NCBI GenBank assembly: GCA_017622495.1
Contig: JAGAQY010000055.1
Span: 1-64,000 of the forward strand
Origin: Bacteroidaceae bacterium
GTDB taxonomy: Bacteria > Bacteroidota > Bacteroidia > Bacteroidales > Bacteroidaceae
Length of the DNA: 64,000 bases
Reading direction: 5' to 3'
Made by a program: the position numbers and the translations under genes. Each line of letters opens with the position of its first letter. The first letter of the stretch is position 1. The notes below the pieces were generated by a model that was not told the origin of the DNA, did not search any database, and worked only from the letters and a program-made list of their open reading frames with translations. Below are positions 7,132 through 53,307 of the stretch, piece by piece.

Positions 7132-8736
7132 ATGGCAAACATTGATTTGAGCAAGTACGGAATCACCGGTGCAGTAGAGGTTTTGCACAATCCGTCTTAT
7201 GAAGTTTTGTTCCAAGAGGAAACAAAAGCAGGTCTTGAAGGTTTCGAGAAGGGTCAGGAGACCGAGCTCGGCGCCGTTAACGTGATGACAGGTGTTTACA
7301 CCGGCCGTTCACCCAAAGACAAGTTCTTTGTAATGGACGAGGTAAGCAAGGATACTGTATGGTGGACTTCTGATGAATACAAGAACGACAACAAGCCCGT
7401 TACAGAGGCTACCTGGGCAGTGCTCAAGGACCTTGCTGTAAAGGAACTCTCTGGCAAGAAGCTCTATGTAATGGATACCTTCTGCGGTGCCAACGAGAAC
7501 AGCCGTCTGAAAGTTCGCTTCATCATGGAGGTAGCATGGCAGGCTCACTTCGTAAAGAATATGTTTATCCGTCCTACTGAGGAGGAACTCGCTAACTATG
7601 GTGAGCCCGACTTCGTAGTATACAACGCTTCTAAGGCAAAGGTAGACAACTACGCTGAGCTCGGCCTCAACTCTGAGACTGCTGTAGTGTTCAACCTCAC
7701 CTCTAAGGAGCAGGTAATCCTCAACACATGGTATGGTGGTGAGATGAAGAAGGGTATGTTCTCAATCATGAACTATCTGCTTCCTCTCCGTGGCATGGCT
7801 TCAATGCACTGCTCTGCCAATGTAGGTCACGATGGCGACACCGCTATCTTCTTCGGTCTCTCTGGTACAGGTAAGACTACCCTTTCTACCGACCCCAAGC
7901 GTCTCCTCATCGGTGACGACGAGCACGGCTGGGACGACGAAGGCGTATTCAACTTCGAGGGTGGCTGCTACGCAAAGGTTATCAACCTCGACAAGGAGTC
8001 TGAGCCCGATATCTTCAACGCTATCAAGCGCGACGCTCTCCTCGAGAACGTAACCGTAGCTGCTGACGGCAAGATCGACTTCGCCGATAAGAGCGTTACC
8101 GAGAACACTCGTGTATCATATCCTATCTACCACATCGACAACATCGTGAAGCCCGTTTCTAAGGCTGGTCCTGCAAAGAAGGTTATCTTCCTCTCTGCCG
8201 ACGCCTTCGGTGTACTTCCTCCCGTATCTATCTTGAACCCCGCCCAGACACAGTACTACTTCCTCTCTGGCTTCACCGCTAAGTTGGCAGGTACAGAGCG
8301 TGGTATCACAGAGCCCACACCTACCTTCTCAGCTTGCTTCGGCGCAGCTTTCTTGAGCTTGCACCCCACAAAGTACGGTGAAGAGTTGGTTAAGAAGATG
8401 GAGGCTAACGGTGCTACCGCATACCTCGTAAACACAGGTTGGAACGGTACCGGCAAGCGTATCTCTATCAAGGATACCCGTGGCATCATCGACGCTATCC
8501 TCGATGGCTCTATCGACAAGGCTCCCACAAAGGTTATCCCTTACTTCGACTTTGTAGTGCCCACAGAGCTCCCCGGTGTTGACACCAACATCCTCGATCC
8601 TCGCGACACTTACGCTGACGCTGCTCAGTGGGAAGAGAAGGCAAAAGACCTCGCTGGCCGCTTCATCAAGAACTTCGCTAAGTTCACTGGCAACGAGGCT
8701 GGTAAGGCTCTCGTCGCTGCAGGTCCTAAGCTCTAA
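7132..8736 (+). CDS. pckA: Phosphoenolpyruvate carboxykinase (ATP)
   Basis: The ATP-dependent enzyme interconverts oxaloacetate and phosphoenolpyruvate. In anaerobic Bacteroidales it usually runs in the carboxylating direction toward succinate. The kinase-1 P-loop appears as GLSGTGKTT at about residues 241-249, followed by LIGDDEHGW, which carries metal-binding acidic residues. The 534-residue length is normal. I took the ATG at 7132 ([10 protein letters not shown]); an in-frame extension to 7051 is unconserved-looking leader. Codon use is strongly biased (many CTC, GTA, AAG), as expected of a highly expressed gene. It is monocistronic, with a TAnnTTTG box upstream and a strong hairpin at 8827. 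Its last 30 bases are duplicated downstream. Confidence 0.97.
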
Positions 8737-9024: not shown

Positions 9025-9112
9025 AAAATCGCACCTGCCATTCCGGAAAATCGCATGTCCCATTTTGCAAAATCGCACCTGCGTTTTCTGAAAATCGCAT
9101 GTGCGATTTTCG
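9025..9112. repeat. 22-bp-period AAAATCGCA array, copy 1 (four units)
   Basis: AAAATCGCA occurs at 9025, 9047, 9069 and 9091, exactly 22 nt apart, with unit tails alternating between CCTGC and TGT(C/G)C. The last 43 bases (9070-9112) are identical to 17350-17392, and the same word in reverse orientation forms the array at 53144-53229. The surrounding 586-nt gap between pckA and the ABC transporter contains no gene I can support. Confidence 0.9.
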
Positions 9113-17223: not shown

Positions 17224-17349
17224 ATTCAGAGAATAATCAATTACAATTCGTGGGACAAAATTAGTGCAAAAAAATGATATGGCGAAGACAAAGCCTGTTT
17301 ACTTAGTCTGATTGGATTTTATTTCAGGTTTAGTAGAGAGGTGGCTCCG

Positions 17350-17392
17350 AAATCGCACCTGCGTTTTCTGAAAATCGCATGTGCGATTTTCG
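17350..17392. repeat. 22-bp-period AAAATCGCA array, copy 2 (two units)
   Basis: These 43 bases are identical to 9070-9112, with AAATCGCA words beginning at 17350 and 17371-17372 in the same 22-nt register. It lies just downstream of the AraC-type regulator gene. The same family recurs at 53144-53229. Confidence 0.9.
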
Positions 17393-32275: not shown

Positions 32276-34560
32276 GAACCGCTATATATAATAAGGTAAT
32301 GCGCGTGGCGGCCCTCGCCATAGTGGCTGCACTGGCAGCACCCGCACTGCAGGCGCAAGAGGCTTTGCACCTGTTTTACAAGAATAAGACTCGCGAGACG
32401 ATAGAGATTAAGCCCGACACGAAGGTGGAGTTTTACAAGAAACCGTATTTGGAAGAAGTCGGATATGCAGATACACTATTTATGTCGGCAAGTGCAGGTC
32501 GCACACAGGGTTACGGATTAGTCCATTCTAATACTTCTTGGAATGTATCTGTTAATGCTACTTGGCTGATGACAAAAGTGAATAAGTTGCCTAATTATTA
32601 TTATGAACAAGGTGACGGTATCATGGAAAATCATTATCTGCTTTATGCGCAGCCTAATGAGACTGATAAAGAACGTATTGCCACACTTACAATTAGTGGT
32701 GAGCAGGGGGTGTCGGAACAACTTGTTGTAATACAACAACCATACTTGCTTTCATTGGAGCGTTCAAGTACTATCTATTATGCTGATGCCGTGATAGCCC
32801 GAAATGATACTGTCGCGTGGAGTGATACGCTGTATGAGGCGTATGTATATCCTAATCATGGTGTTAGAATTTTGCACTATCCTAATTGGCTGGTGCTTGA
32901 TACTATCATACATGGTGCAGACCAATGCAGGTTTGAGGATATCGAAAAAATAGGTGATGATGTATCTATAACTTCTTCTTCTGTTGGTAGTTGCCCTTAT
33001 ACATGCGGTGTATTTCATCTTTCACAAAACAATTCTTCTGCTGATCGAACAGGTAATATAATTTTTGAAGCCCACGGACAGACTGCTGTTCTCACCGTGA
33101 CTCAGAAGGGCCTGACTGAAGAGGCTATCGCCAGTGAGGCAAATGCTCTTGTCAAGCAAATGTGTCAGTTTGATGCTCTTGGGGGCGGGCGTCATGACGA
33201 CTTCGGATTCCCCGCACTGATGCTCGCTATGGATAGCCGTGGCATGGACTTGGTGTCTGAGGATGTCGGTTACAACTGGTTTTCGTATAATATGACTTAT
33301 GACGATTTGGAGAGTAACTATACATTTACCTCTTTGCGTTGGACTACATTGTATAACCATATCTTAGCAACCAATAAGGTGGTGGAAGACTATGGCGGGC
33401 GTGAGGGCGAGTCGCTCTTTCAATTCTACTTGGGTCAGGCATACACGTTGCGTGCCTTCAGCTACTTCTACCTGGCGCAGCTCTACCAGCAGACCTACGT
33501 GGGCAATGAAGACCAGCCTTGCGTACCTATCATCACAGAGAGCGATATGCGCGTGATCTATACCGAGGGCCGTGCACGCGCTACCGTGCGTGAGGTGTAC
33601 GACTTCATCCTTGCCGACCTCGACAAGGCGCTGCATTTGTTGCAGCAGACTGCCGTGGCTCGTCCCGGAAAGGGTCTTGTGAATGTCGATGTTGTCTATG
33701 GTCTCCGTGCCCGCATATATATGGTAATGAACAATTGGGTCGATGCCTTTTCGGATGCTTTTCGGGTAATTAATACTTCTGGAGCATCTCCTTATGATCG
33801 GGAGGAGGTGGCCAAGCCTACATTCAACGACATCAACCACGGCGCTTGGCTGTGGGGTATCGATGTGGAGGAGAATGACCGCACGGTAACCTCGGGAATC
33901 TGTAACTGGCCGTCACACATGGGATCGTTCTCATACGGCTACGCACAGGTGGGCGTATGGCGTATGGTGAACCGCTCGCTGTACGATGCTATCCCCACGA
34001 CCGATGTGCGCAAGGGATGGTTCCTCGATGCTGAAGCTACCTCGGCTAACCTCAATGCCGAGCAGGCAAGCTATGCACGTTCGTATGGCATGTATCCCTA
34101 TACGCAGGTGAAGTTTGCTCCCTACAAGGATGAACTGGGAACGAGCACGAATGCCAACGACATCCCGCTGATGCGCATCGAGGAGATGTATCTCATCGCT
34201 GCCGAGGCACAGGCTATGATGGGTAATTCTACAGGTGCAGCTGCTACCTTGCAAAATTTTGTCGCCACCTATCGCGACCCGGCATACACCTGTAAGGCTA
34301 CTACGGCCGAGGAGGTGCGCGAGGCGGTGTGGATGCAGCGCCGTATAGAGCTGTGGGGTGAGGGCCACTCATACTTTGACCTCATGCGCATGAAGAAGGG
34401 TGTGGACCGCCGCGGTGCCGGATTTGCTTCGGCTTATGTATACAACATCCCCGCAGGCGACGCAGCGCTCATCTATCCTATCCCCGACCGCGAGATGAGC
34501 AGCAACCCGCTGCTGATACAGAACCCCGTGGCAGAGCAGCCTGTGCCGGTTAGCGATTAA
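32272..34560 (+). CDS. BACON-SusD/RagB fusion protein
   Basis: A 762-residue exported protein. After a type I signal (cleaved near LQAQ, residue ~29) come a short EIKPDTKVEF module and two BACON-like Ig domains. The first is at ~65-160 (NTSWNVSVNATWLM, then TLTISGEQG). The second is at ~165-285, ending in TAVLTVTQKG. From about 290 it is a SusD/RagB glycan-binding TPR-type protein: YTLRAFSYFYLAQLY, VYDFILADLDKAL, YGLRARIYMVMNNW, MRIEEMYLIAAEA and RRIELWGEGHSYFDLMR. Typical SusD proteins are lipoproteins next to a SusC TonB-dependent transporter. Here no lipobox Cys follows the signal and no SusC gene is in the window. It could bind glycans or peptides for a distant transporter. Confidence 0.88.
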   Translation: MRTAIYNKVMRVAALAIVAALAAPALQAQEALHLFYKNKTRETIEIKPDTKVEFYKKPYLEEVGYADTLFMSASAGRTQGYGLVHSNTSWNVSVNATWLMTKVNKLPNYYYEQGDGIMENHYLLYAQPNETDKERIATLTISGEQGVSEQLVVIQQPYLLSLERSSTIYYADAVIARNDTVAWSDTLYEAYVYPNHGVRILHYPNWLVLDTIIHGADQCRFEDIEKIGDDVSITSSSVGSCPYTCGVFHLSQNNSSADRTGNIIFEAHGQTAVLTVTQKGLTEEAIASEANALVKQMCQFDALGGGRHDDFGFPALMLAMDSRGMDLVSEDVGYNWFSYNMTYDDLESNYTFTSLRWTTLYNHILATNKVVEDYGGREGESLFQFYLGQAYTLRAFSYFYLAQLYQQTYVGNEDQPCVPIITESDMRVIYTEGRARATVREVYDFILADLDKALHLLQQTAVARPGKGLVNVDVVYGLRARIYMVMNNWVDAFSDAFRVINTSGASPYDREEVAKPTFNDINHGAWLWGIDVEENDRTVTSGICNWPSHMGSFSYGYAQVGVWRMVNRSLYDAIPTTDVRKGWFLDAEATSANLNAEQASYARSYGMYPYTQVKFAPYKDELGTSTNANDIPLMRIEEMYLIAAEAQAMMGNSTGAAATLQNFVATYRDPAYTCKATTAEEVREAVWMQRRIELWGEGHSYFDLMRMKKGVDRRGAGFASAYVYNIPAGDAALIYPIPDREMSSNPLLIQNPVAEQPVPVSD

Positions 34561-34712
34561 CGGGGAACGATTAACGATTAACGTTTAACGGTTGACGAGG
34601 AACGAGTACTTTACGAAACGCCGATGCGAATAGTGTCGGCGTTTTTTGTCATCAGGTTGGTGCACTACACTCACAACTCATAACTCACAACTCATAACTC
34701 ATAACTCACAAC
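34561..34712. repeat. Short-unit repeats and terminator after the SusD-like gene
   Basis: Immediately after the stop are TTAACGATTAACG-like words (34572-34598). A hairpin with a 9-bp stem (34616-34624 with 34636-34644) follows, running into TTTTTT and giving a good terminator at 34616-34647. Next is a series of ACTCATAACTCACA-like words (34672-34710). The remaining part of the 323-nt gap holds the rpsL promoter. Confidence 0.75.
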
Positions 34713-50821: not shown

Positions 50822-50940
50822 TATAACCTATTCCCGACAGTTATTCCGCATTGTCTTTTTGGATTGTATTCTTCCTATCTGCAATCGCGGCTGTAGGCAC
50901 TGCTGAATGAACGTTGAGAATGCTTAATTGATCAAAGAAA
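50822..50940 (+). other. rpsK-rpsD spacer, possible S4 leader
   Basis: At 119 nt this is the longest gap in the alpha-type part of the cluster. It contains no reading frame of note and only weak stems. In E. coli S4 represses this operon through a leader structure; a similar role here is speculation. Confidence 0.3.
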
Positions 50941-53143: not shown

Positions 53144-53229
53144 AAAATCGCACCTGCGATTTTGCGAAATGGCAGGTGCGATTTTCGAAAAACGGACATG
53201 CGATTCATGAAAATGGCAGGTGCGATTTT
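53144..53229. repeat. 22-bp-period AAAATCGCA array, copy 3 (mainly inverted)
   Basis: One AAAATCGCA at 53144 forms a palindrome with TGCGATTTT at 53155. TGCGATT(TT) then recurs at 53177, 53199 and 53221, exactly 22 nt apart. Unit bodies read GGCAGG(T) before TGCGATTTT, the reverse complement of the CCTGCC seen at 9025. The 390-nt gap here also holds the rplQ terminator and the promoter at 53308. Confidence 0.9.
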
Positions 53230-53307
53230 AAGGCTCGATCACTTTGTGTTAGTTTATTATGGTATGTTGCTCAATTTTAGTCTCTGCGACGAAAACATGG
53301 GCAAAAG

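Follow-up and report, generated by a model that had tools for sequence, protein, structure and literature searches.

Period-22 arrays of imperfect palindromes as candidate miniature intergenic elements in a Bacteroidaceae genome and its relatives

The 22-bp iterons of plasmid origins and the tandem 22-bp transposase sites at the ends of Tn7 and Mu each set several protein sites at a spacing of two helical turns. Among chromosomal repeats, REPs serve as targets for insertion sequences, including those of the IS3 family (PMC1525189), and CGTC-tagged repeats have been reported in Bacteroidetes (PMC3733652). The BrickBuilt MITE of Porphyromonas gingivalis is built from a 23-nt repeat with the consensus AGAYCATARTATCCTCTCRTRTG, present in up to 18 full repeats (PMC4596501), and Prevotella intermedia carries PINSR, a 188-bp repeat in 177-184 copies (PMC4755523).

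The arrays described here resemble each of these systems in part. Like REP/BIME clusters, they are short intergenic palindromes in clusters that act, judged by position, as insertion sequence targets and fall into subfamilies with alternative stem bases; they differ in their strict 22-bp tandem register, in consisting of some four units whose outer ends match, and in the many unrelated classes found within one genome. They share with BrickBuilt their occurrence in Bacteroidales, intergenic placement, contiguous tandem repeats of near-equal length, MITE-like inverted ends, and long predicted stem-loops, whereas the BrickBuilt consensus is unrelated, its period is 23 rather than 22 nt, its inverted ends lie on a separate leader and tail, and it forms one class in one species group (PMC4596501). 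PINSR is likewise a lineage-specific intergenic repeat, possibly of a related group, but it is a single 188-bp sequence, and it is not known to have a 22-nt register (PMC4755523). In contrast to iterons and the Tn7 and Mu end sites, the arrays are chromosomal, with palindromic units and inverted outer ends. A plasmid or phage origin found no support, as there was no match in plasmid or phage collections (a separate search gave two viral-contig matches), and CRISPR was ruled out, as unique spacers are absent and only 2 nt separate class A palindromes. No description of such arrays was found in a search of open-access papers.

Three arrays of one sequence class, termed class A, lie in the window, the 64-kb stretch analyzed from a draft metagenome-assembled genome (3.18 Mb, 76 contigs, 87% complete). 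The first, at 9025-9112 on the forward strand, has four 22-bp units whose outer halves, AAAATCGCAC and GTGCGATTTT, form inverted ends, and AAAATCGCA starts in it at 9025, 9047, 9069, and 9091. The second, at 17349-17392 on the forward strand, has two units equal to the last two of the first array, with an exact 43-bp identity between 9070-9112 and 17350-17392. The third, at 53144-53231 on the reverse strand, has four units in 22-nt register, with TGCGATT at 53155, 53177, 53199, and 53221; its unit at 53144-53163 (AAAATCGCACCTGCGATTTT) consists of CC flanked by two perfect 9-bp arms. The first-pass annotation had given all of these word positions and the 43-bp identity correctly. TRF detects both of the longer arrays as period-22 repeats. 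Allowing up to one mismatch, AAATCGCANNTG matched 16 times in the window compared with 4.1 ± 2.4 times in dinucleotide shuffles, and 16 was reached in 0 of 100 shuffles, so the count exceeds chance. The flanking genes bear out the intergenic placement previously claimed for all three arrays: the first is located between convergent PEPCK and ABC-transporter genes, the second begins 36 nt after the stop codon of an AraC-type gene and has behind it about 16 nt of a GC-rich tail that also occurs with a copy on contig C27, and the third separates rplQ from an M49 peptidase gene. In genome G005 of the same genus, rplQ and the next gene occur in the same order with the array absent, at a junction that is not exactly alignable. 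No recognized insertion sequence adjoins any of the three.

The earlier view of one repeat family at three loci holds insofar as the family is real, but it is too narrow: a fourth period-22 array of different sequence (TATCCRYGGATA) lies at 159-246 on the forward strand, with four 22-bp units in a class A-like architecture (TRF period 22, 3.4 copies, 84%), and many unrelated classes follow the same 22-bp rule. An unbiased lag scan covering 1.09 Mb of genome sequence yielded 38 arrays at a lag of 22, whereas lags of 18, 19, 20, 23, 25, and 26 yielded 1, 0, 1, 0, 2, and 1, respectively; these counts are not genome densities and overestimate them, since array-rich contig starts were sampled heavily. 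The arrays represent a dozen or more unrelated sequence classes that share a single architecture of about four 22-bp palindromes, among them TATCCRYGGATA, GTCACCGCGGTGAC, AGTACTCGAGTACT, TTCGCGAA, TTCTACCTGCAAGCAGAA, TCGGGTGTACCCGA, GCCGATGCGCATCGGC, TACATATATGTA, CAGAGCCGTCCG, and GTGAGACTCGAGTCTCAC. In other genera of the family, lag-22 arrays numbered 6 in 260 kb and 2 in 140 kb (both from single-contig, complete genomes) and 5 in 80 kb, and at the same threshold the other lags tested gave no array; fewer of the lag-22 arrays were clearly palindromic, some being only weakly so. None was found in the 20 to 60 kb sampled from some other genera or in 100 kb of Escherichia coli. Tandem repeats of period 7 and its multiples (14, 21, and 28) are also very common in the host genome, where period 7 alone accounts for 112 TRF rows in 830 kb, for example, at window positions 34547-34712.

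The first-pass annotation had proposed searching the whole genome, and AAATCGCANNTGC occurred 21 times there, with no occurrence of a reversed control. Further class A copies are located on contigs C18, C20, C27, C46, and C55, for a total of seven to eight loci. The 9025 array (contig C50) and a copy at G000:C27:75986-76071 are identical at 85 of 86 bases and have unrelated flanks; this alignment shows that whole class A blocks have been copied to new sites. At several loci, a class A array has a GC-rich tail of about 97 bp (GCCCCTGCCGCCGCGGCATCGGGTACTGGATATTCCCGCG...) behind it (L042 at about 7880-7985, L090, L101, and L100). The ends of contigs C18 and C46 (L040 end and L043 start) are alike at 93% over 598 bp, with five and four class A units, respectively, and may be paralogs or two strain versions of one place. 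A degenerate class A pattern was matched in 9 of 18 other members of the genus (G001, G004, G005, G006, G010, G012, G013, G016, and G018), with controls at 0 to 1 per genome. Neither of the two refutations named in the first-pass annotation came true: the 22-nt spacing is conserved in copies elsewhere in the genome and in other species, the units being in register in all nine genomes except G016 and most often numbering four to five, and the copies are not fragments of one known transposon end. Among 399 genomes of the family, about 380 of them outside the genus, a perfect class A palindrome was found outside the genus once, as an isolated hairpin. The exact tandem pattern had only two matches (Treponema and Acinetobacter) in 84,980 species genomes, where one or two were estimated by chance, and class A therefore looks restricted to the genus on these searches.

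The class A unit comprises an imperfect palindrome of 20 bp and 2 further nt, of the form AAAA[AT][CG]G[CG]A-NN-mirror, and an array usually has four. Across 96 distinct units from 30 array loci in this genus, the half-site consensus is AAAA-[A/T]-[C/G]-G-[C/G]-[A/C]; A occupies position 4 in all but one of 192 halves, position 5 is evenly split between A and T (94 each), and position 6 is C in 105 and G in 86. The search pattern favored the consensus form, and the base count was therefore redone on units failing the pattern by two or more; in these 90 unselected halves, position 5 was A or T in 86, position 6 was C or G in 89, and position 8 was C or G in 84. At position 5, the bases in the two halves of a unit were complementary in 60 of 90 cases compared with 43 expected, and no excess complementarity was seen at positions 6 and 8. 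In some class A units, the two halves disagree at the variable positions, and such units would be expected to make poor hairpins by themselves. The variation among unit bodies noted in the first-pass annotation is real, but its "few forms" are combinations of half-sites, and the palindromic nature of the units had been overlooked. Across classes, the palindromy score was 0.72 compared with 0.55 when the 22 columns were permuted, with p<0.05 in 27 of 43 arrays.

The symmetry extends to the array as a whole. In 34 arrays chosen by hand, the outer half-sites agreed in inverted orientation at 7.9 of 10 positions compared with 6.4 of 10 for other left-right pairs, and the value was higher in 30 of the 34 (p=2e-5). 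In class A arrays, 23 of 38 outermost halves were of the TCGC type, compared with 27 of 122 inner halves. The 10-nt flanks immediately outside class A arrays matched at 2.1 of 10, which is the chance level, and the array is therefore a bounded block with inverted ends, as expected of a miniature element. Because the 22-bp rule holds in many unrelated classes, the ends are matched, and some arrays have been copied as blocks, we place first, with somewhat better than even confidence, the reading that the arrays are a miniature, noncoding, interspersed intergenic element that is BIME- or MITE-like and built on a 22-bp rule. The arrays carry terminal inverted repeats as MITEs do; membership in that group is unproven, since neither a target duplication nor a parent transposon was found.

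The main rival, which follows the protein-binding idea of the first-pass annotation, holds that these are arrays of operators or nucleoid-protein sites, with four dimers in a row along one face of the helix; each class would belong to one member of a protein family, and the arrays would be kept for regulation or chromosome structure. Cooperative binding of this kind is possible and compatible with the array geometry, since the units are twofold symmetric at a strict two-turn spacing, and, as far as the DNA alone can tell, two-turn phasing and palindromy would fit protein dimers. Class A half-sites also have fixed A4, G7, and A9 next to positions where only A/T or C/G matters. Evidence used for this reading and for the element reading alike comes from the TACATATATGTA array at G000:C29:7143-7252, which has orthologs in G018, G006, and G001, is decayed in G012 and G013, and is absent from G008, G007, and G011, where its gene neighbors are conserved. 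Between species, several of its units have exchanged AT for GC at the center, with both sides altered, a conservation of symmetry that looks like coevolution with a binder; 10 pair cells stayed complementary through two-sided change compared with 20 gained or lost by one-sided change, where the counts are cells and not independent events. The comparison shows an array that has persisted in place with symmetric change; at this locus it is inherited vertically rather than mobile, which speaks against the element reading. An array on contig C50 outside the window (L045:6273-6360) is also in place in G005. Among the empty sites compared, which are too diverged, there was neither a clean empty-site junction nor an array target-site duplication. 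The genes beside class A (PEPCK, ABC transporter, AraC, rplQ, and M49 peptidase) are unrelated, however, and matched outer ends and block copying would not be expected of operators. We know of no protein that binds the arrays, and we consider the operator reading possible but rather unlikely.

A second alternative, that the arrays are REP/BIME elements mobilized by a RAYT (REP-associated tyrosine transposase), draws on their palindromic, intergenic, clustered organization and their use as insertion sequence targets, as known for REPs (PMC1525189). The genome also has a single gene resembling an HUH transposase (L046, G000:C62:37391-37681), which matches NF047646 at 43 bits; this is below the family cutoff of 80 bits, and no array is nearby. 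The gene has a long C-terminal extension, and similar matches occur in G001 and G006. RAYT genes were not found in G005, G010, G012, and G018, which carry class A and are incomplete genomes. Inspection of class A, the class scored, found no GTAG or CGTC tag at a unit end, nor was there a RAYT gene flanked by arrays, a feature of the GTAG kind only. Without tag or RAYT, membership among REPs fails, and mobilization by a RAYT is improbable.

The arrays have also been considered as RNA elements, in which a transcribed array would form hairpins for termination, processing, or stability. In single-strand folding with DNA parameters, a result that also favors the element reading, all 12 arrays tested surpassed the shuffle mean (z from -2.6 to -7.9), several with the whole block predicted as a single long hairpin, and some arrays lie between codirectional genes near a stop codon. 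Mismatched pairs on the coding strand, however, comprised 21 G-T and 15 A-C, with no clear preference for G-T, and convergent gene pairs, the expected place for terminators, hold only 1 of 21 classified arrays, so that gene orientation does not support a terminator role. Rfam contained no family matching the arrays; its sole match was the S4-Bacteroidia ribosomal protein leader (RF03139) at window positions 50862-50893. Together, these observations make an RNA role hard to credit.

Insertion sequences do lie close to many arrays. The 3' end of an IS3-type element, termed Q1, occupies positions 1-139 of the window on the forward strand, ends in CAGGAAAAGACA, and stops about 20 nt before the 159-246 array, outside it. 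Identical or near-identical copies are present on contigs C61, C73, C14, C15, C12, and C63, and the assignment comes from the upstream reading frame on C12, which matches rve_3 and NF033516; a group II intron, first suspected for this contig-end repeat, was dropped. In six of seven copies, the Q1 end is followed about 18-24 nt on by a period-22 array; five of these arrays belong to one class and the sixth to a different one. Right ends of a second, IS3-like element, Q2, adjoin arrays in four of four cases, representing four different classes, and its other end adjoined none by the same test. Together, Q1 and Q2 lie beside arrays of at least five classes, with the AGTACT class beside both. An ISAs1-like MITE of about 300 bp with ends CAGGGAAAACGCATTATAA (L233, G000:C41:49603; L161, 12773-13093) shows 10-bp target duplications (TAAAACAAAG and AAAGAATTAA) and in several places has an array 18-20 nt away; the family names for Q2 and this MITE were given from the element ends together with a short reading frame rather than from a family search. 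These associations by position suggest that the arrays are landing sites of insertion sequences, and no transposase flanked by arrays was found in the part of the genome that was read. That the arrays are themselves end pieces of neighboring insertion sequences, a reading prompted by their frequent proximity to insertion sequence, MITE, and contig ends, is largely refuted and very improbable, as the same insertion sequence adjoins several classes, a single class adjoins two different insertion sequences, and the three class A arrays in the window have none recognized alongside.

For the preferred reading, a miniature intergenic element, one element corresponds to a block in which imperfect 22-bp palindromes, usually four, stand in tandem and the outermost half-sites are mutually inverted. 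The outer halves would serve as ends worked on in trans by a recombinase or transposase. Each palindrome may be a twofold site for a protein dimer or may extrude as a hairpin, and 22 bp, at two helical turns, would make every site face the same way along the helix. Because one insertion sequence adjoins several unrelated array classes, insertion sequences may recognize the geometry that these have in common. More tentatively, and with doubts outweighing our confidence, we suggest a type of miniature element found across the family and set by length and symmetry (about four 22-bp palindromes with matched ends) rather than sequence, whose geometry insertion sequences would recognize, as would a host or mobile protein able to measure 22 bp. 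If the element reading is right, many intergenic stretches in this family of bacteria, which is common in the gut, would belong to one undescribed type of element. This would account for the landing places of some insertion sequences and for some of the contig breaks in the draft assemblies, and it would offer a natural system for asking how a protein gauges exactly two helical turns when the sequence it meets can change freely.
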